Assembly: GCF_023078495.1 (NCBI RefSeq)
Contig: NZ_CP095742.1
Span: forward strand, 2,852,001-2,916,000
Origin: Luteibacter aegosomatissinici
GTDB taxonomy: Bacteria; Pseudomonadota; Gammaproteobacteria; Xanthomonadales; Rhodanobacteraceae
Length of the DNA stretch: 64,000 nt
Direction: 5' to 3'
A program made the translations under genes and the position numbers. This document shows, piece by piece, positions 18,428-57,747 of this stretch; position 1 is the first letter of the stretch; every line of letters starts with the position of its first letter. The notes under the pieces are model-generated. The model worked only from the letters and a program-made list of their open reading frames with translations. It did no database searches and was not told the origin of the DNA.

Positions 18428-18625
18428 CTAGTCACCGTCGGTCTCCGGCTTCTGCTCCTCTGCGTGCCACGGGTGGCCCGAGACTCGCTCGATGTAGTCT
18501 CGAATGAGCTGCCGGACCACCTGCGAGGGAGTCGTGTCTTGCTCCTCACAAATGCGCTCGAAGATGGCCTTTTTTCGAGGGTCAACCAGAATGGTCAACC
18601 TCGCGGTACGCGTTTCCTGGGTCAT
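18428..18625 (-). CDS. Ribbon-helix-helix DNA-binding protein
   Basis: A 65-residue CopG/MetJ-type protein: the beta strand TARLTILVDPRKKAIFERIC, then helices with TPSQVVRQLIRDYIERVSG. AGGAG precedes the ATG at 18625. Proteins of this size are usually autorepressors such as antitoxins, plasmid copy-number or relaxosome factors. It is the first gene of a two-gene operon with 17692-18417. The AT-rich segment 18640-18680 upstream is the likely promoter/operator. Confidence 0.8.
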   Translation of the reverse strand: MTQETRTARLTILVDPRKKAIFERICEEQDTTPSQVVRQLIRDYIERVSGHPWHAEEQKPETDGD

Positions 18626-19395
18626 GGAAGGACTCCTGAACACATTTCATTATCATAGCATGCGTATCTAATGAATGTCCTGGCAAGTGGGAGCCCCCCC
18701 CCCACCGCAGCGCGGTCGGTAAAACGGGCTCCTGCTCACTCCGCCTGCCTTTGACGGGTCGGCCGACGCCCCGCGCAACAAAAGATGAATGCGGTCACGC
18801 GGCCGGCGGCGCCCACACCAGAACGCTCGACGCGCTCGAGTCCCACCGAGCGCACCATGCTTGCCGCATCAACCTGGTCATGCGCCGAGCCGACGTCCGC
18901 CCCTCCCCCAGGGCTACTCCTTCGCCTGACAGTCGACGTTGACAAAGAAATCTGCGGCGGCGTTATCGACTCAACCTGGCCTTACCCCGCACGCAAAAAA
19001 CCATCTCAAGCCAGGCAGAGTCCCAATCGAGCGCGCAGACCAGACTGAAGCCATGCTACACGGCGGCGTATGCTTCCATCAGGGTTGTCGGCGGAGTCTT
19101 CGATGGAACGATGGATCTTGCGATTCTACATGTGGCCGCGCGCGCAACATCGCGGCTCGCCCCTTCATCATTGGCTAAGAGAGGCGGCCCGACTGCGGGG
19201 ACTCGGAAGCGGCCGGTTATATCGGTCAGGTGCCATGCTGCACAAACAAAAGGGCCTGAGCTCGCGGCAGGGTAACGACAGGGCCGATCGCCCTGTCGTT
19301 GTCGAATTTGTAACATCTCCAGACACAGCGGCGCTATTGACCGAACTGGTCAGTATCAGTTGTGCCTGCGCCCTCTGGACGCGAGTCCCGCTACG
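18626..19395. other. Intergenic, no supported gene
   Basis: 770 bp. The first ~50 bp are AT-rich and suit the RHH operon promoter. A C10 tract lies at 18694-18703. The rest has no credible coding frame. Confidence 0.5.
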
Positions 19396-24206: not shown

Positions 24207-24422
24207 CTACCCCTTCGGCGCAGTGATGCCCCACCGCAGTACATGTGCTTGAAGGGCGGCGGCTACGGTGCTTTCATCGACCGCCGTGCCGCTCAATGGG
24301 ATAACCACCGCCGCGCCTTCAATCTCGGCCGACCATACAACCTCCCTGCCAAACCGCGCATAGGTGACGACCGCAACCAGCCGTCGCCCGTGCTCATCTA
24401 TGACCTCGATGCGCTCCGTCAT
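24207..24422 (-). CDS. Small alpha/beta partner protein, copy A
   Basis: A 71-residue protein (MTERIEVIDEHGRRLVAVVT...REVVWSAEIEGAAVVIPLSG, ending with helix VAAALQAHVLRWGITA). GGGAGGT precedes the ATG at 24422. It is strongly similar to 31411-31653 in the duplicated block. It is divergent from the receiver remnant/HTH pair. No known domain; the beta-sheet-plus-helix pattern suggests a compact dimer or binding module. Confidence 0.7.
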   Translation of the reverse strand: MTERIEVIDEHGRRLVAVVTYARFGREVVWSAEIEGAAVVIPLSGTAVDESTVAAALQAHVLRWGITAPKG

Positions 24423-24533
24423 TCGTACCTCCCGGGTCCAGATTGCGAGCTCCACAATGCAACCGTACAGACGGGACGTAAAGCCCGCTGCCTCTCACCT
24501 GATGTGCCGACCGCGTTGGCGTATCACATCACA

Positions 24534-24632
24534 ATGACTTCCGAACCGCTGCTTTCCCCAAAACGATACACCCTCGAACGGCAGGCTATCCTTGCCGAAA
24601 CCATTGGCCATTCGCCTGCAATGAGACGCTAA
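24534..24632 (+). pseudogene. Receiver-protein gene reduced to 32 codons by internal deletion
   Basis: The upstream DNA and the first codons (ATGACTTCC... near TTGGCGTATCA) align with the start of the receiver gene at 31767. The frame then keeps only a TLERQAILAETIG-like piece and ends in TAA. That stop overlaps the HTH start as TAATG, as TGATG does in copy B. The body of the receiver domain was deleted while the coupling junction was kept. Confidence 0.6.
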
Positions 24633-24907
24633 TGGCCGGCACACGGCCCCGCACGGCGCCGGGATTTCTCCCCGACACCCTCCAGCTCAACCGCCGCGGC
24701 AACTTGCGCGCTATTCTTCTGGAACTCGAGGGCGACGGCATTGAATCGGCCCTCCGCGTCGACCAGGTACTCGGCTTGCCCACGGGCACCCTCGCCGAGC
24801 TCCGCGAGGGTGCACAGGTCACGGACGCCATGGCCCGGGAAATCGAATGGGCCATGAACAGGCCCGCTGGCTGGCTCGACCGAGGACCTAAGGACGACAA
24901 AATCTAG
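24632..24907 (+). CDS. Compact repressor-like HTH protein, copy A
   Basis: A 91-residue protein: a basic Pro-rich arm, NRRGNLRAILLELEGDGIES, the recognition-helix region GLPTGTLAELREGAQVTDAM, and AREIEWAMNRPAGWLDRGP. It is closely similar to 32150-32425. The layout matches CI-like repressor domains without a dimerisation or protease part. Translation is coupled to the upstream mini-ORF (TAATG). Its stop overlaps that of the convergent receiver-output gene by 4 bp. Confidence 0.75.
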   Translation: MAGTRPRTAPGFLPDTLQLNRRGNLRAILLELEGDGIESALRVDQVLGLPTGTLAELREGAQVTDAMAREIEWAMNRPAGWLDRGPKDDKI

Positions 24908-25614
24908 CGCGGTGCAGGGGCAGCCCCCGTGGCGAGGTCGAGCATTGCCAGAAGCTGGCGTCGCTGGTAGGGCTTGGCAAGAAACAACACGCCTTCGGGG
25001 ACCGCAAGCGCGCCCTCGGTATGGCGCCCTGTCACGACCACTACACCAGTCTTTGGCCAGCGGGTCCGGACGCTGAGCGCGAGTTCGAGGCCTTCTGCTC
25101 GCACCGCGAGGTCGATATCGGACAACACGGCATCGAAAACCTGCGCTTCGAGGGCCGCCATGGCCTGCGCCACGTTCGATGCCGGCGTCGGCACCCAACC
25201 GGTGACTTTGAGCATGTCACACGTCACTTCCAGCAGCACCTCGTCGTCCTCGACAACCAGCACTTGCCTTGGACGCATGTCCGGCGTCGATTCGGGTCGT
25301 GGTTCTCGCCGCCGGGCCGATCCGGTCACCACCTGCTTGCTTACCTCCTCGACCATCGTGCGCACGGCGGTACACCTTGTCCGGACGTCACTCGCCGATG
25401 CAAAAAAGAGGACCCGCCCGCCTTCAACCGATACCAGTGCATCGGTGAGCGAGTTCCGCGTACTCGCCGCCTCGTTGACGAACGCATCCAGCCATTCCCG
25501 GCTTGGCATGACGTTCAACAGGCCCACGACGGGCGCATCGCGCACCACATCGACCGCGTCTTTCAACGGGGGAACCTCGAATCCGACAATCCGGGGAAGA
25601 TGGCGAAGGGGCAT
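24904..25614 (-). CDS. Receiver-domain protein with unknown N-terminal domain, copy A
   Basis: A 236-residue protein. Residues ~1-110 form an unknown domain (MPLRHLPRIVGFEVPPLKDA, PSREWLDAF, ALVSVEGGRVLFFASASDV). Residues ~120-236 are a response-regulator receiver with the acidic pocket VVEDDEVLL, phospho-acceptor LSDIDL, VVTGRH and LAKPY. There is no C-terminal output, so the N-terminal domain is the likely effector. The start is set by conservation with copy B (32422-33129). The cognate histidine kinase is not in the window. Confidence 0.8.
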   Translation of the reverse strand: MPLRHLPRIVGFEVPPLKDAVDVVRDAPVVGLLNVMPSREWLDAFVNEAASTRNSLTDALVSVEGGRVLFFASASDVRTRCTAVRTMVEEVSKQVVTGSARRREPRPESTPDMRPRQVLVVEDDEVLLEVTCDMLKVTGWVPTPASNVAQAMAALEAQVFDAVLSDIDLAVRAEGLELALSVRTRWPKTGVVVVTGRHTEGALAVPEGVLFLAKPYQRRQLLAMLDLATGAAPAPR

Positions 25615-25737
25615 GACGAAACCCGTGCAGTCAGTGGTGGATGGCCAAATGGACGTCAACGCATATGTTGCAAAGTAGACCCGCGCCCGGCAAGCGGACG
25701 CCACCATATTCGGGCATGCGATGCAGTGTGGCCGTTA

Positions 25738-31410: not shown

Positions 31411-31653
31411 TCAAGCGGCAGGAAAATCGGAGACCCGTGCCCCCGGCGATGCCGTTATCCCCCAACGCAAGACATGAGCCTGTAGCGCCGCAGCGATGCT
31501 GCCCTCGTCCCCCGCCGTTCCGCTCAACGGGATGGTCACCGCCGCGCCCTCAATCTCGGCAGACCAAACAACTTCCTGCCCTAATCTGGCATGCGTAACC
31601 AACGCCACCAGTCGTTGCCCGTGCTCGTCGACAACCTCAATGCGCTCCGTCAT
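31411..31653 (-). CDS. Small alpha/beta partner protein, copy B
   Basis: An 80-residue paralogue of 24207-24422 (MTERIEVVDEHGQRLVALVT, EVVWSAEIEGAAVTIPLSG, AALQAHVLRWGITA), with nine extra C-terminal residues. GGGAGGT precedes the ATG at 31653. It is divergent from the receiver/HTH operon, as in copy A. Function unknown. Confidence 0.72.
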   Translation of the reverse strand: MTERIEVVDEHGQRLVALVTHARLGQEVVWSAEIEGAAVTIPLSGTAGDEGSIAAALQAHVLRWGITASPGARVSDFPAA

Positions 31654-31766
31654 TGCAACCTCCCGACCTGAAGTCTTGAACACCAGCATGCGACCCGGGA
31701 GACGAAACGTAAAGCGCACCGCTCCTCATGCTTGCCCCATCCATTGCATTGGCGTATCAAAGCACA

Positions 31767-32150
31767 ATGACCTCCCCAACGATACCACCTCCGATCGCAA
31801 TCATTGTCGAACCCTCGACCACCCTTGCGGACACGGTCGCCGACGCCCTCCGCCAGCGCGGCTTCGAAGTGTTCGTGGCTGCCACCCATTCCGGCGGCGC
31901 GCACTCCGCTCTTGCCCACGCCGTGGTGGACTTCCTGATCGCAGCCGTGCCGGCACCTGGGGAGGACCGAACCGGTGCGTACCTGGCGCTTGCACGCGAG
32001 CGCAACCCAGCGCTTCGAACAGTCGTCATGCTTTCCGACCCGGACGAGGACGCGACTGAGGCCCCGATTGGTGCTATCAAGCTCACCAAACCGTTCACCG
32101 TAACGGAGCTGGATGAAGCCATCGAACAGGCCTTGGCGGTGACGTTCTGA
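31767..32150 (+). CDS. Degenerate receiver-domain (pseudo-receiver) protein
   Basis: A 127-residue single receiver-like domain. The fold pattern is visible (IAIIVEPSTTLADTVADALR, RTVVMLSDPDED, IKLTKPFTVTELDEAIEQAL). The acidic pocket is reduced to EP, and the phospho-acceptor position in VVDFLIAAVPAPG is Ala, so it should not be phosphorylated normally. The catalytic-type Lys (TKPF) is kept. Its TGA overlaps the ATG of the HTH gene (TGATG), so the two are translationally coupled; it may control the HTH protein directly. Confidence 0.7.
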   Translation: MTSPTIPPPIAIIVEPSTTLADTVADALRQRGFEVFVAATHSGGAHSALAHAVVDFLIAAVPAPGEDRTGAYLALARERNPALRTVVMLSDPDEDATEAPIGAIKLTKPFTVTELDEAIEQALAVTF

Positions 32151-32425
32151 TGACAGGAAGGCGCCGCCGTCCGTCGCCGGGATTCCTCCCCGATTCGCTC
32201 CAGCTCAATCGGAGGGGTAACCTGCGTGCACTCCTCCAGGAACTCGAAGACGACGGCATCGAGTCTGCAGTGCTCGTCGATCAGCTCCTTGGACTCCATG
32301 CAGGAACGCTGGCCGATATCCGAAGAGGCACTGAGATCACCGATGCCACGGCTCGCGAAATCGAGTGGGCGATGAACAAGCCAGTCGGCTGGCTCGATCG
32401 AGGGCCGAAGGACGGGGAAATCTAA
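32150..32425 (+). CDS. Compact repressor-like HTH protein, copy B
   Basis: A 91-residue close paralogue of 24632-24907 (basic arm, NRRGNLRALLQELEDDGIES, HAGTLADIRRGTEITDATAR, EIEWAMNKPVGWLDRGP). It is coupled to the pseudo-receiver by TGATG. Its 3' end overlaps the convergent receiver-output gene by 4 bp, exactly as in copy A. Probable DNA-binding protein without a separate effector domain. Confidence 0.75.
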   Translation: MTGRRRRPSPGFLPDSLQLNRRGNLRALLQELEDDGIESAVLVDQLLGLHAGTLADIRRGTEITDATAREIEWAMNKPVGWLDRGPKDGEI

Positions 32426-33129
32426 CGCCCGTTGCGGGATGAATCGATTGCCATATCGAGCATCGCAAGAAGTTGACGTCGCTGGTAGGGCTTCGCGAGA
32501 AACAGAGCGCCTTCCGGTAGGGCCAACGTGTCGTCGGCATGACGCCCGGTTACGACGACGCCAATCTGGGGCCACGGCGCACGGATGTCGCTCGCGAGCC
32601 CCACGCCCTCGGTCTGGATGAGGAGGTCAATGTCGGTCGGACCCGCATCCATGGCTTGGCACTCAAGCAAAGCCGTGGCCTGCGCCACGCCTGACGCCGG
32701 GAACGCCGACCATCCGGCGGCCCTCAGCGCGTCGCAAGCGACATCAAGCAACACCTCATTGTCCTCGGCGACCAGCACGCTCCGCGGGCGTGACGCCTGT
32801 GCTGCCTGTGGCGCAACCCCTTGCTTCCTGGAAGTCCTGGTCATCACGCTCTTGCTCACGTCGCCGATCATTGCCGGGACGGCAGTGCACCGGGTCTGGG
32901 CATCGCCAGCAGAGGCAAAGAACAGGACTCGCCCTCCCTCCACGGTCACGAGCGCGTTCGTGAGCGAGCCACGCGTGTTCTCGGCCTCCCCGATGAAGGC
33001 ATCGAGCCATTCCCTGCTCGGCTCGACGTTCAGCAAGCCGACGATCGGGGATCGCGCACAACCTCCACCGCGCTTTTTCAGCGGCGGGACCTCAAATCCG
33101 ACGATGCGCGGAAGACGACGAAGCGGCAT
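32422..33129 (-). CDS. Receiver-domain protein with unknown N-terminal domain, copy B
   Basis: A 235-residue paralogue of 24904-25614 with the same N-terminal domain (PSREWLDAFIGEAENTRGSL, VEGGRVLFFASAGDAQTRC) and a receiver with VAEDNEVLL, TDIDL, VVTGRH and LAKPY. The key residues look usable, although the acceptor context is altered (PTDID). The start ATG at 33129 is the conserved one. It may have diverged after duplication to answer a different kinase. Confidence 0.78.
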   Translation of the reverse strand: MPLRRLPRIVGFEVPPLKKRGGGCARSPIVGLLNVEPSREWLDAFIGEAENTRGSLTNALVTVEGGRVLFFASAGDAQTRCTAVPAMIGDVSKSVMTRTSRKQGVAPQAAQASRPRSVLVAEDNEVLLDVACDALRAAGWSAFPASGVAQATALLECQAMDAGPTDIDLLIQTEGVGLASDIRAPWPQIGVVVTGRHADDTLALPEGALFLAKPYQRRQLLAMLDMAIDSSRNGR

Positions 33130-33241
33130 GGCTATGACGATATGTTCGACGCAATCACGACCATCGGAAATGCCCCCCCATGCTGCAAAAATGATGGCCT
33201 GCTGGCAAGCCCTCGCCCGCCCTGAGGATGCGTGTCCCGAA

Positions 33242-33592
33242 TCAGGGGGTGTCACATGCGGGCGAACCAGCACCGGTACACGACCCGCACATCAAGTCGA
33301 TACCCTGAAAGACAGGCAAGCCGCCCGTTTCCCGCAACGGGCCGCCCACCCGGCGGATTGACCACGCCAGGAATGACCATGGGCGTCGCTTTGCGCTGGG
33401 TAACAGCGAGCTCGCCTTCGGTGAACCGGGAGCAGCCACGATCAGGCGAAACCGCTTTTCGGAGCAGCCGATGGCGTCAAACCGCGTGAAATCGTCGCCC
33501 TGCCCCGGGGCATCGGCGTTCAGAAGCTCTTCGACAACGTCACGACCGGCGCGCCGACGGACGACCGGATTGATAGCGAGACGAGTACGCAT
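33242..33592 (-). pseudogene. hsp20 remnant fused to the tail of the Cys-rich gene
   Basis: The first ~60 codons (MRTRLAINPV..., GQGDDFTRFDAIGCSEKRFR, LIVAAPGS) correspond to the N-terminal half of the Hsp20 at 26032-26496. The last ~35 (GGLPVFQGIDLMC...CTGAG) correspond to the end of the Cys-rich protein at 25738-25992. The alpha-crystallin core, terminator and most of the second gene are missing, so a deletion joined the two. It remains open as a 116-codon chimera but is unlikely to work as a chaperone. Confidence 0.7.
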
Positions 33593-51775: not shown

Positions 51776-52453
51776 TCAAAGACGGGATTGCGGCCCAGGC
51801 ACCATCCCGGCCGCAGACAGCACACGCGCCAGCCACCCCTGTTCAACGTTTGCGAGCACCGCAGACGGAATGTGGTCGCGGGGGGTCTCGCCATGGACGT
51901 CCGGTGTGTCGAGGGAAAGGCCTGCGTCCATCAAATAGCGGACGGTCACAGGACTATAGGCATAGTGAAGCAAGGTGCGCCCGTTACTATCTATCTGGCG
52001 GAGGTCGCCGTTGGCGGCAACGACTGGCAGGAAACGCAGGCGATCGCGTTCGGCGTCGAGCATCACCGCAAGCGTCAGGGCGGTGACGTGCGTTACTTCC
52101 ATCTCAACACCGTCGCGATTGATGACCGCTTCGCAAACCTGCAAATCAACGGCAGCGCCAAGCTCAATGAGCGCGGTGACCGCCTTGAGATCACGCCTGA
52201 CGAGGGCCTGTGGAAGGCAGTGCGACGGTGCCAGTACACCGTCATCGCCCATGACCTTCCGGAAGAAGTCCTGCATCCGGTCACCGGCTCCCTCAATCTG
52301 GCGCGCCATGCGCCCATAGCCAGCCGCCTCGAGGACCGCCTTCGACGCCTTCGCTTCAAGGTCACTGGGGGAGACCACCATCGGCCCGTTGCGCTCGTCG
52401 AAATCACTCTTGCCCTCCCACGAGGTGGTGGCGTTGGGTGCTGGACTCGACAT
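51776..52453 (-). CDS. Ankyrin-repeat protein, regulon member 1
   Basis: A 225-residue protein: a ~75-residue N-terminal region, then ankyrin-type units (LVRRDLKAVTALIELGAAVD, DLRQIDSNGRTLLHYAYSPV, VRYLMDAGLSLDTPDVHGET). GGGAGATAGG precedes the ATG. It shares its upstream ~110 bp, including promoter and operator, with the ankyrin gene at 55014-55706, and shares blocks such as FLP(V/L)(V/L)A..GDL. Interaction partner unknown. Confidence 0.8.
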   Translation of the reverse strand: MSSPAPNATTSWEGKSDFDERNGPMVVSPSDLEAKASKAVLEAAGYGRMARQIEGAGDRMQDFFRKVMGDDGVLAPSHCLPQALVRRDLKAVTALIELGAAVDLQVCEAVINRDGVEMEVTHVTALTLAVMLDAERDRLRFLPVVAANGDLRQIDSNGRTLLHYAYSPVTVRYLMDAGLSLDTPDVHGETPRDHIPSAVLANVEQGWLARVLSAAGMVPGPQSRL

Positions 52454-52475
52454 TGGGCCTATCTCCCGGGGGCTC

Positions 52476-52587
52476 CTTCCACGTTAACCAGGTTCCGGAG
52501 GTCGTCAAGGGGGCGCACGGCATGTTGTCCAAGTCGCTTGGCGTGCACGCGTTACATGTAACGGCATCCAGGCGTTACGTGTTACGC
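52476..52587 (-). promoter_or_regulatory. Shared promoter/operator, copy 1
   Basis: Minus-strand promoter: -35 TTGACG (52503-52508), 16-bp spacer, -10 TAACGT (52481-52486), start codon 28 bp further. Upstream is the palindrome CGTTACATGTAACG (52550-52563) and GCGTTACGTGTTACGC (52572-52587) with two direct GTTAC units. The palindrome is 41 bp from the -35, as in copy 2, suggesting an activator site. Confidence 0.7.
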
Positions 52588-52954
52588 AAGGAGAACGGTC
52601 GCGAAGTCCCGCGCCCTCCCCGGGCTATAACGGCAATCCATCCTTCGAGTATTCCAAGGCACGGGCGGGCTGTTGGTCTTCGAAGACCTTCGCCAAACCG
52701 AGGGCGTCCAGGTCGTGTGGATCTGCCATGGTTTGTTGCCGTCGTCTGAACGAGCCTCCATGCAAAGGCTCGAGGCGGACTCCGGTCCGCCACCGGGCGG
52801 GCAGCGGGTCAACGCCCCCCGAATCCCCAATGGTGATTGAGTGCGTCGAGTCATGGCCGGAGACAAACCGAGTGCGACGGCAACTTGGGCGCCACCTCGA
52901 TCAGCTTGACAACGCCGCCGTCTTCGTTACGTTGTTGTCTTTGGGAGCTTCGAC
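52588..52954. other. Intergenic with a possible 34-codon ORF
   Basis: 367 bp. A minus-strand frame (52625-52729; MADPHDLDALGLAKVFEDQQ...) is the only plausible peptide and lacks a ribosome site. Otherwise nothing. Confidence 0.3.
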
Positions 52955-53539
52955 GTGGGCATCCGCCTTACCCGACGACCATCCGGCTTCTTCAGCCCGC
53001 CGCCGCCGGAGGTTCTGACCGCGTATTTCTCCGAGCTGGGCTATGCCCTCGTGCACAACCCACAGGCGACGTTCGATCACTGGGTCGTTTCTCGTCCGAA
53101 CGCCCGACTCAAAGCACAATCGTTCAGTGACTACGGCGGCCTATGGGTCTGGTGGCTGGAAGAGTCCCTGCGTATTCTCAACGCCGACACCGAATACCGG
53201 CTGCTTTGTAGCTGGTACCGCACAGCCCTTCCAGACGAGCGTGTAGAGATTCTGCAGCGTGCCCGGGAAGATTGCGCCCTGAACCATCCTGCAGCAAAGT
53301 CCCTGCGACCCTGCGGATTCCAGCGACTCGCCTACTGCGAACTGAAAATCGCGGACCTTGATGACACCTGGCTCGAAACTGTCGCTGCCATCGAGGCAGA
53401 ATGCAGGGCCTCCGGCGCGCGATCGAGTGAGCGGCTGTGCATCTACATCGATCGGTATACACAGTTGCAGGCTCGCCAAGCGCTTTCAGATGCAATATCG
53501 GCAGCGAACGCCCCGACCTCACCCCGGAGGCGCCTGTAG
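52955..53539 (+). CDS. Unknown protein, YFS-motif family member 1
   Basis: A 194-residue protein starting at GTG 52955 behind GGGAG. The N-terminal block (EVLTAYFSELGYALVHNPQA, then HWVVS) matches the start of the minus-strand gene at 56766-57353 (LMRTYFSDIGFVLRHQVVAM, RWWLT). The rest has several Trp/Cys residues and helices. No known domain. It is the first of three same-strand genes (52955, 53574, 53840). Confidence 0.68.
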   Translation: MGIRLTRRPSGFFSPPPPEVLTAYFSELGYALVHNPQATFDHWVVSRPNARLKAQSFSDYGGLWVWWLEESLRILNADTEYRLLCSWYRTALPDERVEILQRAREDCALNHPAAKSLRPCGFQRLAYCELKIADLDDTWLETVAAIEAECRASGARSSERLCIYIDRYTQLQARQALSDAISAANAPTSPRRRL

Positions 53540-53573
53540 CCGTATCCTTGCCCTACCAGGCGAGGAGGCAACC

Positions 53574-53879
53574 ATGGACCGATTGCGGCAGGCGATGCTC
53601 GGGCAGTATGCAAAACGCGAAGGAATCCCGGGGCCCGTTGAGGCAGCATTCCGGCACACACTCAACCAGATGGCCGCAAGCGGGCTCCTCGCAACCATGG
53701 ACGAGGAAACCATCACCGCCGCAATCCTCGGTGGTTTTGTGGCTACCCTGCCCGTGAGTACCGCTGTCTTCGCGTCTGCGCCGGTCCAAGCGCCGGGCAC
53801 CGAGGCGGAGCCCCAAACGGCCCCCCGGGACAACCGAAGGTGGCTTGGGGCCAATACGACAAGAGTACCGACAGTGTGA
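53574..53879 (+). CDS. Small hypothetical protein
   Basis: A 101-residue protein with GAGGCAACC before its ATG, 34 bp after the previous gene. A helical first half (LRQAMLGQYAKREGIPGPVE, AFRHTLNQMAASGLLATMDE) is followed by an Ala/Val-rich stretch and a Pro-rich tail. Its last 40 bp overlap the next gene's start, suggesting an operon. Confidence 0.62.
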   Translation: MDRLRQAMLGQYAKREGIPGPVEAAFRHTLNQMAASGLLATMDEETITAAILGGFVATLPVSTAVFASAPVQAPGTEAEPQTAPRDNRRWLGANTTRVPTV

Positions 53880-54955
53880 CGGGTTCCGAGGCCCGCCGGG
53901 GAGCCGACTTCGCCCTCGTGGTGTGGGAATCGGAAACCACGGCACGTGTTGCGTTGTTCCAGGCCAAGCGGGTGGAAAAGGCCCCGCCTCCGGATGGGAG
54001 CATGACGCTCGCCAATATCAACACCCGAAAACCGGCGCTATCCATCAATGGTGCAGGGCCGGTTTTCGGTCTGGACGGCGCCCACCGCTTCATTGATATT
54101 CACCGGCGCGCGAAGTTTGTCGCAGGAGGCCCCTGGCGCAAGAGCCAGATGGAATCGCTCCGGCAGACGGGAAAGTGGATCATCATGGCCGATGTGATCC
54201 AGGCCAACGGTGGCAGTGCCGCCGAATTCAGGACCTTGATGGCGCCGCTCGATGCGCCTTCACTTCCAATACGCACTTTCCTCCTCAAGGAAGAATCTGA
54301 GGAGGAGCTTGCGGCCGCGAACGAAAGAGCGCGCGACGCCAACATGGAACGTGAACCCGCACTCGCCGAACTCAATGATTACTATGAAACATGGTCGAGC
54401 AGCCGTCCGCAGCCTGGTGATGATCGACTGACCTGGATTCACTATCTTGCCTACAGCCGGGCCCAACCTGGCACAAAAAAGCCTGACGGAACCGTCGAAC
54501 CGCCCGGGCATTCGGTACTTTGCACAACGCTGACTGACCTTGAAGACTGCATGGGGCGCGAGGCAGAGGAGGGACCAGCCCGCAAGCATGTCGTCGACCT
54601 GGCTACCGTCAACTGCTACCGGTTTATCGATGTGCTCCTCAATGCCTTCGAGCCCATTTCCCAAGACGGCATGCTCGGCTGCCATGGATGGCTACGGGTC
54701 ACGGCCGAAACCGTGCGACAGATGCTGCCTGCGCTGCAGACCCTCGGCGACGTATTCATGACAACCGATAAAGGGGGCGAGGGATTCACCATTACGTGCG
54801 CCGCTGACAGCGGCGCATCGTGTGACGCCAACCCTGCCGGCAACAGACCAGCCGATGAGTTGGCGCAGGTGGCGGTGCCACAGAATGAGGAGACAGCCGC
54901 CCTGGACACGAAAATCCAGCCGACTGTCCCAACGCGACGCCACACGCCAGGGTGA
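53840..54955 (+). CDS. Putative PD-(D/E)XK nuclease-like protein
   Basis: A 371-residue protein from GTG 53840. Residues ~14-45 (TGSEARRGADFALVVWESET, then VALFQAKRVEK) fit the E...GaDf-lv...QaK pattern of the PD-(D/E)XK nuclease fold, with QAK as the third motif. The remaining ~320 residues are an unknown domain with His/Trp/Cys features (LTWIHYLAYSR, GCHGWLRVTAETVRQM). Restriction-like, anti-phage or effector roles are possible. It overlaps the preceding small gene by 40 bp, so that protein may be a partner or antitoxin. Nuclease call is inference. Confidence 0.6.
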   Translation: MAWGQYDKSTDSVTGSEARRGADFALVVWESETTARVALFQAKRVEKAPPPDGSMTLANINTRKPALSINGAGPVFGLDGAHRFIDIHRRAKFVAGGPWRKSQMESLRQTGKWIIMADVIQANGGSAAEFRTLMAPLDAPSLPIRTFLLKEESEEELAAANERARDANMEREPALAELNDYYETWSSSRPQPGDDRLTWIHYLAYSRAQPGTKKPDGTVEPPGHSVLCTTLTDLEDCMGREAEEGPARKHVVDLATVNCYRFIDVLLNAFEPISQDGMLGCHGWLRVTAETVRQMLPALQTLGDVFMTTDKGGEGFTITCAADSGASCDANPAGNRPADELAQVAVPQNEETAALDTKIQPTVPTRRHTPG

Positions 54956-55013
54956 TTCCGGGTGATCAGGCTCCCGGCCGGGCGCTCGGGCCACGCAGGT
55001 CGAGAGCCTCACC

Positions 55014-55706
55014 TCAAAGGCGCGGGCTTGCCTCCCTCGGCAGCCCCTGTGGAAGGGCCCGTTCGAGATGCATGGCCTCAATGAGACGGGCGTTCTCCTC
55101 GCCCAGGAATTCGGTCACCGGGACGTCGTCTTCATCGACGGCATCGATGCGGACGCCGGCGTCGAGCAGAAATCCGATGACTGCGGGGTTCGCGGCATAG
55201 GCGATGAGCGTGCGACCGTGGGTGTCGACCTGCTGGAGGTCCCCGAACTGCGCGAGCAATGGGAGAAACTCAAGGTTGCCCGACTCGGAGTCGAGCAGCG
55301 TCGCAAAGGCCACGGCCGAGATGTCCGCGACCTCGGGCGGCTCCTCACCTGTCGGGTCACACCCGAAATTCATGCAGTCGAGGTCCGTCCGCAGGCCAGT
55401 ACGGAGCACGGCATGCGCAGCCGGCATGTCCCGCTCATTCAGGGCCGCTTCGAGCATGAAATGGAGGCCCGGCAAGGTCTCGTCCACCTTTTCCTGTTTT
55501 GAACTGTCGCTCTGACGCCGCCTCGGGTCGTCGAACGCATACCCCAGTGACGGGTCAACCAACGTGTAACCCAAAGATTCGAGTTCGTCAGGAGTAAACT
55601 GCTGCTGCAGTTCCCGCCGACCGATGCGGTAGGGACCATGGGCATCACCGAAGCCAGGTGAGTCCCAACCAAGGGTCGTGGGTGGAAGGCGGACGGGGTC
55701 GTTCAC
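55014..55706 (-). CDS. Ankyrin-repeat protein, regulon member 2
   Basis: A 230-residue protein from GTG 55706 (GGAG upstream; the longer open frame runs back through the promoter). Ankyrin units are visible at ALNERDMPAAHAVLRTGLRT, FLPLLAQFGDLQQVDTHGRT and GFLLDAGVRIDAVDEDDVPV. It is a paralogue of 51776-52453 under the same promoter/operator. The two probably act in one pathway or as immunity/adaptor variants. Confidence 0.78.
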   Translation of the reverse strand: MNDPVRLPPTTLGWDSPGFGDAHGPYRIGRRELQQQFTPDELESLGYTLVDPSLGYAFDDPRRRQSDSSKQEKVDETLPGLHFMLEAALNERDMPAAHAVLRTGLRTDLDCMNFGCDPTGEEPPEVADISAVAFATLLDSESGNLEFLPLLAQFGDLQQVDTHGRTLIAYAANPAVIGFLLDAGVRIDAVDEDDVPVTEFLGEENARLIEAMHLERALPQGLPREASPRL

Positions 55707-55728
55707 GGGAGCTCCGGAAAGGGGGACT

Positions 55729-55841
55729 CCTTCCACGTTAACGAGGATCCTGAGGTCGTCAAGGGGGCGCACGGCATGTTGTCCAAGTCGTTTGGCGTGC
55801 ACGCGTTACATGTAACGGCATCCAAGCGTTACGTGTTACGC
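55729..55841 (-). promoter_or_regulatory. Shared promoter/operator, copy 2
   Basis: Near-identical to 52476-52587: -35 TTGACG (55757-55762), 16-bp spacer, -10 TAACGT (55735-55740), start codon 29 bp further. The palindrome CGTTACATGTAACG (55804-55817) and GCGTTACGTGTTACGC (55826-55841) sit at the same distance (41 bp). The two copies form a ~110-bp direct repeat 3.25 kb apart. Confidence 0.72.
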
Positions 55842-55862
55842 GTCGGCGGATCTTCTCGGAAC

Positions 55863-56255
55863 CTAAAGACGCCTCTGCGCTGCTGTGCTCGGTGCGACCG
55901 GAACGTTTTCGAGCGACTGGCCGAGGACGGCCTTCTCGCCTTTCGCGAGCCACAATGGCCCCTCGCGGCCGGCAACCGCAAGGAACTCGTCACGCTCGAT
56001 GTCACCCCGGCCAATGGCCTCAACGTAGCGTCGGCCGCCGAGTGCGTTGAGCGAGTGCTGCACGATGCCCTCCACCTCCTCCCTCACCTCTTCCATGGAC
56101 GAGAAGAGCCGAGCGGTCACCGTAGGATCCATGTCCACCAGGACACATCGATGCCCGACGATGTCGCCGGAGACGATGTCATCACCGACGAGCAGGACTT
56201 GGCCCGAGACCGCGAGGATTCGTTGCAAGGCGCTCAGCAGGTCCTCGTCTTCCAT
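55863..56255 (-). CDS. Hypothetical protein, regulon member 3b
   Basis: A 130-residue protein (EDLLSALQRILAVSGQVLLV, GHRCVLVDMDPTVTARLFSS, YVEAIGRGDIERDEFLAVAG). Its ATG overlaps the upstream TGA as TGATG, so it is co-translated with 56255-56446. A beta-rich centre and helical ends; family not recognised. Confidence 0.7.
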   Translation of the reverse strand: MEDEDLLSALQRILAVSGQVLLVGDDIVSGDIVGHRCVLVDMDPTVTARLFSSMEEVREEVEGIVQHSLNALGGRRYVEAIGRGDIERDEFLAVAGREGPLWLAKGEKAVLGQSLENVPVAPSTAAQRRL

Positions 56256-56446
56256 CACGGCGTTACCTCGGCTGTGCAGACAGCCACGCCACAGGTGTCG
56301 TGCACCCGCGTGCTGAATGTTTCGATGTCCTCACCGGACAGGGTCTCGATGCGCTCGGCGAGCTTGCGCAGGGTTGAGGCCACTTCGACGCCCTGGCCTT
56401 CGTCAAAGGCACGGTGCTTGAGATCAATGGTCACAGTCAGCTGCAT
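56255..56446 (-). CDS. Small conserved plasmid/phage-type protein, regulon member 3a
   Basis: A 63-residue protein, MQLTVTIDLKHRAFDEGQGV, EVASTLRKLAERIETLSGED. The pattern (strand, acidic Phe turn, 'EVA..LRKLA.R' helix, strand with Asp) recurs in small proteins of phages and integrative elements. AAGGACC precedes the ATG. First gene of the two-gene operon under the third shared promoter. Confidence 0.75.
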   Translation of the reverse strand: MQLTVTIDLKHRAFDEGQGVEVASTLRKLAERIETLSGEDIETFSTRVHDTCGVAVCTAEVTP

Positions 56447-56475
56447 GGAGGGTCCTTGGTTGGGAGAGTCCATCC

Positions 56476-56569
56476 AAGCTAACGACAATTGGCGTTTCGT
56501 CAAGCGTGCTGCGACCGATTGCCCGGCGGGGCGTTACGTGTGACAGAACGCGAGGCGTTACATGTAACG
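56476..56569 (-). promoter_or_regulatory. Shared promoter/operator, copy 3
   Basis: -35 TTGACG (56498-56503), 16-bp spacer, -10 TAGCTT (56476-56481), start codon 30 bp further: the same geometry as copies 1 and 2 although the surrounding DNA is unrelated. The operator parts are in swapped order: GCGTTACGTGTGAC (56531-56544), then CGTTACATGTAACG (56556-56569). Confidence 0.65.
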
Positions 56570-56765: not shown

Positions 56766-57353
56766 CTACAGCGCAGGCGAACGCACATCGAACACAGAGA
56801 GCTGCCCGGCAAGCTCAGCCCAGCCCGCCTTGCGCAGGACGTCCCAGGCAGCGGTCCTCGCGACGGGGTGGGCGTCCCAGGGCCAGCCCCTGGATTCGAG
56901 CTGACCGGTCTCCTTGGAAAAACGCATGGCTGACCACGGCCACCTTGTTTCGTCGACGGGCTTTCCATCCACGTCCAAGGGCGTCCCGTCGAGCGTGTCA
57001 GGGAAGCAGTCCCCTTCCGAGCGGACCCAGCGGTCGAACTCCACACGCTCCTCTGCCGACGCGCCCGCCAGGCGGTTGGCAATCAATGCAACGCAATGGG
57101 CTTCGCGCTCAAAACGCGCCAGGTTGGCGGCCCAGCCGCGCCACAATCTCTGTGAAGTGCGAAAGAAGCCGCCTTCCCCCTCCCCCGAATCCCCTACTCC
57201 ACCGGGCAATGGATAGACTGTTTGATCGTTGTTCGTGAGCCACCAGCGCTCCGGCGCATTCATGGCCACCACCTGGTGCCGAAGGACAAAGCCAATGTCG
57301 GAGAAGTATGTGCGCATCAACCTGGCGGTTGGTGCGCGGCGCGAGACGGTCAT
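56766..57353 (-). CDS. Unknown protein, YFS-motif family member 2
   Basis: A 195-residue protein from ATG 57353, chosen for AGGAG 8 bp upstream over earlier in-frame ATGs. The N-terminus (RLMRTYFSDIGFVLRHQ, ERWWLT) parallels 52955-53539, and total length is nearly identical (195 vs 194). The C-terminal two-thirds differ. A glycine-rich loop (GGVGDSGEGEGG) lies in the middle. Unknown function. Confidence 0.68.
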   Translation of the reverse strand: MTVSRRAPTARLMRTYFSDIGFVLRHQVVAMNAPERWWLTNNDQTVYPLPGGVGDSGEGEGGFFRTSQRLWRGWAANLARFEREAHCVALIANRLAGASAEERVEFDRWVRSEGDCFPDTLDGTPLDVDGKPVDETRWPWSAMRFSKETGQLESRGWPWDAHPVARTAAWDVLRKAGWAELAGQLSVFDVRSPAL

Positions 57354-57747
57354 GGGAGAACTCCTGGTGATTGATGAATCCATCCTGGCGCCCCGCACCG
57401 GGCTGTCAAGGCTCCCGGGAATGGTTCAAATGAACACCTGCAACGCGCAACACGTCATGTCGTGCTTGCGAACCACACTCGCACGCACGGAGATTTGCAT
57501 GGTGACGAACACGCGTGAGAAATCGGGTGTGTCGCGTTTGCCGTCGCCTCGTGATGACCTCCAGACCGAACAGTCGACGCAAGGATGTGCCTGTGGGTAC
57601 AGCGATGTCGGGCCATCACGCCATCATCCCGTGCCTTCGCAACCTTGCGTGGGCGGCCCTTTTTACCGCCAACCGCAGACCCGAACAGGCCGACCGTCCT
57701 GGGCAGCGCCAGTGGTCCGGCACCGATGTCGCCAGCCCGACCGCCCG
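57354..57747. other. Intergenic
   Basis: 394 bp with no supported gene. Confidence 0.4.

Follow-up and report, generated by a model that had tools for sequence, protein, structure and literature searches.

The met boxes of MetJ are tandem palindromic boxes, each bound by one RHH dimer; they are 8 bp long (AGACGTCT), belong to methionine genes and serve repression. The operator described here, found in a 64,000-nucleotide window (the whole stretch of DNA that was analysed) from Luteibacter aegosomatissinici, has tandem palindromic boxes in common with MetJ and differs from it in the sequence and length of the boxes, in the genes that follow and, on the reading favoured below, in the direction of control. 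MatP is also an RHH protein and binds GTGACRNYGTCAC (PMC12756933, PMC6907758); these matS sites share GTNAC half-sites with the present operator, as does the site beside a MatP-like plasmid gene (loci L062, L063 and L085), but matS has a 3-bp centre and the centre here is 2 bp. Omega (Omega/ParB of pSM19035), likewise RHH, binds WATCACW heptads of 7 bp in direct or inverted order (PMC9499535). Its short boxes and 7-bp repeat period recur here, but the omega sites are made of seven to ten contiguous heptads of a different sequence and function in partition, whereas each block here contains only two boxes. MazE6 is a further RHH protein (PMC9477884), and the boxes in the window, being short, tandem and within a 7-8 bp period, are as expected of RHH-regulated operons. 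A literature search for the operator sequence returned no relevant paper that names it. The findings are a variant of known logic.

The exact palindrome CGTTACATGTAACG occurs at positions 52550, 55804 and 56556, at the three promoters to which the initial annotation had assigned it, and these are the only exact copies in the whole 5-Mb genome, all inside 4 kb. A near-copy lies 23 or 24 bp from each: two-mismatch partner sites at 52573 and 55827 (0.08 expected), and CGTTACGTGTGACA at 56532 in copy 3. The relaxed form CGTNACRYGTNACG has five sites in the genome, every one in this 4-kb cluster. The palindrome is thus real, but the unit is not a palindrome with loose half-sites, as had been annotated; the full operator consists of two 14-mers made of four GTNAC boxes. 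GTNAC is a pentamer that reads the same on both strands, its central base being free, and each 14-mer is dyad-symmetric apart from the central base of each half. All three copies are on the minus strand: copy 1 at 52550-52586 (boxes 52551-52555, 52558-52562, 52574-52578 and 52581-52585), copy 2 at 55804-55840 (boxes 55805-55809, 55812-55816, 55828-55832 and 55835-55839) and copy 3 at 56532-56569 (boxes 56533-56537, 56540-56544, 56557-56561 and 56564-56568). Box spacing is 7-16-7 bp in copies 1 and 2 and in the sister-species promoters G010a, G007a and G007b, and 7-17-7 bp in copy 3; three boxes remain in register in G010b, and the second box pair is degenerate in G001a. Over the seven non-duplicate promoters, GTNACNNGTNAC was counted 12 times against 0.04 expected, with a maximum of 2 in 2000 shuffles. 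Between the orthologous promoters copy 2 and G010a the perfect palindrome trades places with the imperfect site, which the free central base allows. The swapping of operator parts to which the initial annotation had drawn attention in copy 3 is for the same reason less striking, as it consists mostly of central-base changes.

Copy 1 precedes ankyrin-like gene 1 (51776-52453, minus strand, 225 aa), which is followed by two unknown ORFs and then by the gene for a phage-type Dam N6-adenine methyltransferase (PF05869; 49778-50542, minus strand). Copy 2 precedes ankyrin-like gene 2 (55014-55706, minus strand, 230 aa, GTG start). The first gene after copy 3 is a 63-aa ORF (56446-56255, minus strand), which overlaps a 131-aa ORF (56258-55863, minus strand) by 4 nt in the two-gene operon already annotated; neither ORF has an assigned function. 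The Ank_2 evidence for the ankyrin-like genes is one match, below the curated cut-off, and the two proteins are only 31% identical. Orthologs of ankyrin-like gene 2 in the sister species G010 and G001 (80% and 61% identical) have the same promoter in front, occupy the place held here by ankyrin-like gene 1 and are followed by unknown ORFs and the phage-type Dam methylase gene, and the G010 ortholog of the 131-aa ORF is likewise directly upstream of ankyrin gene 2. No plasmid-borne relatives of the operator DNA or of the 131-aa, 63-aa and 157-aa proteins were found, nor any relatives of the 63-aa protein in phages. As copy 2 sits within the string formed by the 63-aa, 131-aa and ankyrin genes, the three operons annotated initially may be two nested transcription units. 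Their shared regulation is supported by the operator and promoter searches, which are independent and, across four species of the genus, give the same loci.

Predicted promoters lie downstream of the boxes at 52481-52508 (copy 1; -35 at 52503-52508, -10 at 52481-52486), 55735-55762 (copy 2; -35 at 55757-55762, -10 at 55735-55740) and 56476-56503 (copy 3; -35 at 56498-56503, -10 at 56476-56481), all on the minus strand. Each has the annotated TTGACG and 16-bp spacer, followed by TAACGT in copies 1 and 2 and TAGCTT in copy 3, and the distance from the -10 to the start codon is 27 nt (ATG), 28 nt (GTG) and 29 nt (ATG), respectively, rather than 28-30. Across species the conserved promoter reads CTTGACGA, 15 nt, and then one of the three subtypes TAACGTGGA, TAGCTTGGA or CAGGCTGGA; the start codon follows after 27-30 nt. 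One subtype is common to copy 3, in front of the 63-aa gene, and G007b, in front of an ankyrin gene; the two have the promoter words in common and little else. By likeness to sigma-70 promoters the -35 TTGACG is good and the -10 words TAACGT, TAGCTT and CAGGCT are weak, and sigma-70 promoter scoring of the region scored no promoters.

The paired pattern was sought in 233 genomes of the family and turned up in three, all of them species of this genus; the reversed-pattern control returned none. Six of the seven places found are in front of island (mostly ankyrin) genes and the seventh, in G010, is a different palindromic repeat; a fourth species of the genus has a degenerate version of the pattern. 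Besides the three promoters in the window, sister species have five or more, and most of them stand before ankyrin-type genes. The promoter-only pattern (TTGACGA, 15 nt, YARSNTGGA) recovered the same eight promoters. It also matched two promoters of the same type without boxes, one at a G001 ankyrin gene and one in G018, so the boxes are not obligatory; a match in G020 looks like coding sequence.

The initial annotation knew of no regulator for this operator, but a precedent exists. Scanning 84,980 species for the pattern gave 30 stretches. Many of the weaker matches are simple repeats and were set aside, and two clear groups emerged: PF11455 (DUF3018) MazE-like operons and a MatP-domain gene. 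In the first group, pairs of the 12-mer GTTACATGTAAC, which is also the exact core of the present operator, lie immediately before MazE-like antitoxin genes accompanied by MazF, spaced by 23-24 bp in L064, L068, L075 and L078, as are the blocks here. In Azospirillum, Rhodococcus, Paracoccus, Pseudomonas and Sphingobium the 12-mer immediately precedes PF11455 antitoxin genes, and such genes with the 12-mer occur in other phyla. At ten further plasmid PF11455 loci, the exact 12-mer is just before the start codon in five; the others have GTCACATGTAAC (one locus), GTTGCATGTAAC twice (two loci), a weak site (one) or none (one). Three alphaproteobacterial loci (L059, L061 and L079) have a pair of the same type in front of a gene that fuses a PF11455-like N-terminus to DUF2170. 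The PF11455 site sits only a few bases away from the antitoxin start codon, within about 25 nt, whereas the operator here is upstream of the -35 and before ankyrin genes, and no MazE-like antitoxin or MazF toxin genes were found beside it. The sequence pattern of PF11455 and the RHH nature of MazE6 (PMC9477884) suggest that PF11455 is an RHH family; none of the solved structures compared with it matched. In the second group, CGTTACATGTCAC-N7..9-GTGACATGTAACG, a GTTAC/GTGAC version, adjoins a gene whose product has a MatP domain and an RHH-like sequence; the conjugative plasmids of enterobacteria often carry this gene. It (L062:2842-3243, L063:3303-3782 and L085, with a match near 2551) is present in 758 plasmid records, mostly conjugative, where it is annotated as a hypothetical protein, and may be a conjugative-element regulator that has a matS-like operator.

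The favoured reading, to which we give an even chance, is that the three sites are promoters of one small regulon, whose regulator, probably RHH, most likely activates the ankyrin-family genes and their neighbours. The candidate protein would bind the four GTNAC boxes as two pairs, with boxes 7 bp apart and pair centres 23-24 bp apart, 28-61 bp ahead of a promoter whose geometry is fixed and whose -10 is weak, and so probably switch on these genes in a variable chromosomal island. Activation is favoured because the boxes are upstream of the -35 and the -10 words are weak; its weak points are the variation of the operator-to-minus-35 gap, which shows no clean helical phasing, and the two box-less promoters. 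A less favoured but possible reading is that the boxes repress, the regulator keeping the genes silent through looping or obstruction of RNA polymerase until an inducing signal arrives. In the MazE-type operons the same 12-mer adjoins the start codon, where it would indeed repress, but boxes upstream of the -35 and a -10 this far from consensus are commoner for activated promoters.

That the protein binding the boxes is RHH has about even odds, judging from the PF11455-linked GTTACATGTAAC, the MatP-like site and the known RHH sites. Our own alignment detected no PF11455 homologs in the genus, and is the main evidence on this point since a separate PF11455 search had no positive control; MatP homologs were not detected either, with a positive E. 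coli control. As far as these searches reach, the regulator here is therefore neither. RHH genes are present in the genome and none could be linked to the boxes. The only one found in the searched islands (18428-18643, minus strand, 71 aa) has a relative in G010; it lacks a box pair upstream, and no homolog was detected in G001 or G007. Upstream box pairs are also lacking at genome position 4700170, where there is a core RHH gene whose PF01402 match recurs across the genus. The 63-aa and 131-aa proteins are improbable regulators, having no convincing family match and predicted structures that do not look like RHH (the model of the 131-aa protein is of low confidence), and a distant autoregulated gene is disfavoured by the lack of any further consensus site in the genome. 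Because GTNAC is palindromic, the sequence is also compatible with an HTH dimer (Xre/Cro-like or TetR-like) reading each 14-bp dyad, and the 23-bp spacing would permit cooperativity as at phage operators; 14-bp operators with a spacing of about 23 bp are typical of some phage repressors. We regard this alternative as rather doubtful. Some comparable sites are near HTH_17 genes (L056) and the dyad symmetry of the 14-mers suits it, but the same 12-mer at the same pair spacing is tied to MazE-like antitoxin genes and a variant to the MatP-like gene, and no Xre-type gene common to the islands of all four species was seen.

The duplication reported for copies 1 and 2 (about 110 bp) is a 120-bp direct repeat spanning promoter and operator (52468-52587 and 55722-55841), 95% identical, and these two copies reflect recent recombination or duplication of the promoter block. 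It is improbable that the boxes are mere passengers in promoter blocks that recombination spread among island genes as homology cassettes. The identity of copies 1 and 2 extends through linker DNA while their proteins are just 31% identical, as copying would produce, but in copy 3 and in the G010, G001 and G007 copies the linkers have diverged and the boxes, their spacing and the promoter words are kept. This pattern of sequence conservation indicates selection on the functional words, as had been argued initially for copy 3. It is very improbable that the boxes are a site of recombination or partition, or a structural DNA element, and not a transcription operator. The Omega and MatP sites do have such roles, in partition and in the organisation of the chromosome (PMC9499535, PMC6907758), but the boxes here are consistently tied to a promoter whose geometry is constant, and neither a recombinase gene nor a ParA gene was recognised next to them.

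More tentatively, the favoured activation by an RHH protein may be extended to an undescribed, genus-specific RHH activator of a variable ankyrin island, acting through the four-box operator, with the operator-promoter module moving between unrelated genes and new genes joining the regulon by acquiring it. The proposed regulon is small, its DNA grammar is precise enough to search for in any genome, and it would place uncharacterised bacterial ankyrin genes under shared control. The wider distribution of GTNAC pairs suggests one recognition word for toxin-antitoxin operons, conjugative plasmids and chromosomal islands.

Several other features of the window recur in related genomes. A nuclease-like gene at 53575-54955 (plus strand; GADFALV...FQAKR) is divided between two frames, and as its G004 counterpart is a single 469-aa ORF (L042 3358-4767), the window copy looks frameshifted. 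Unknown proteins encoded at 52955-53539 and 56766-57398 have relatives near ankyrin genes or in similar islands, in G004 and G001, respectively. A block of three ORFs, encoding a response-regulator-like protein, a 91-aa protein and a protein of 82-102 aa, is duplicated at 24207-25707 and 31411-33273, and a third copy is present in G010 (L037 16994-18422).
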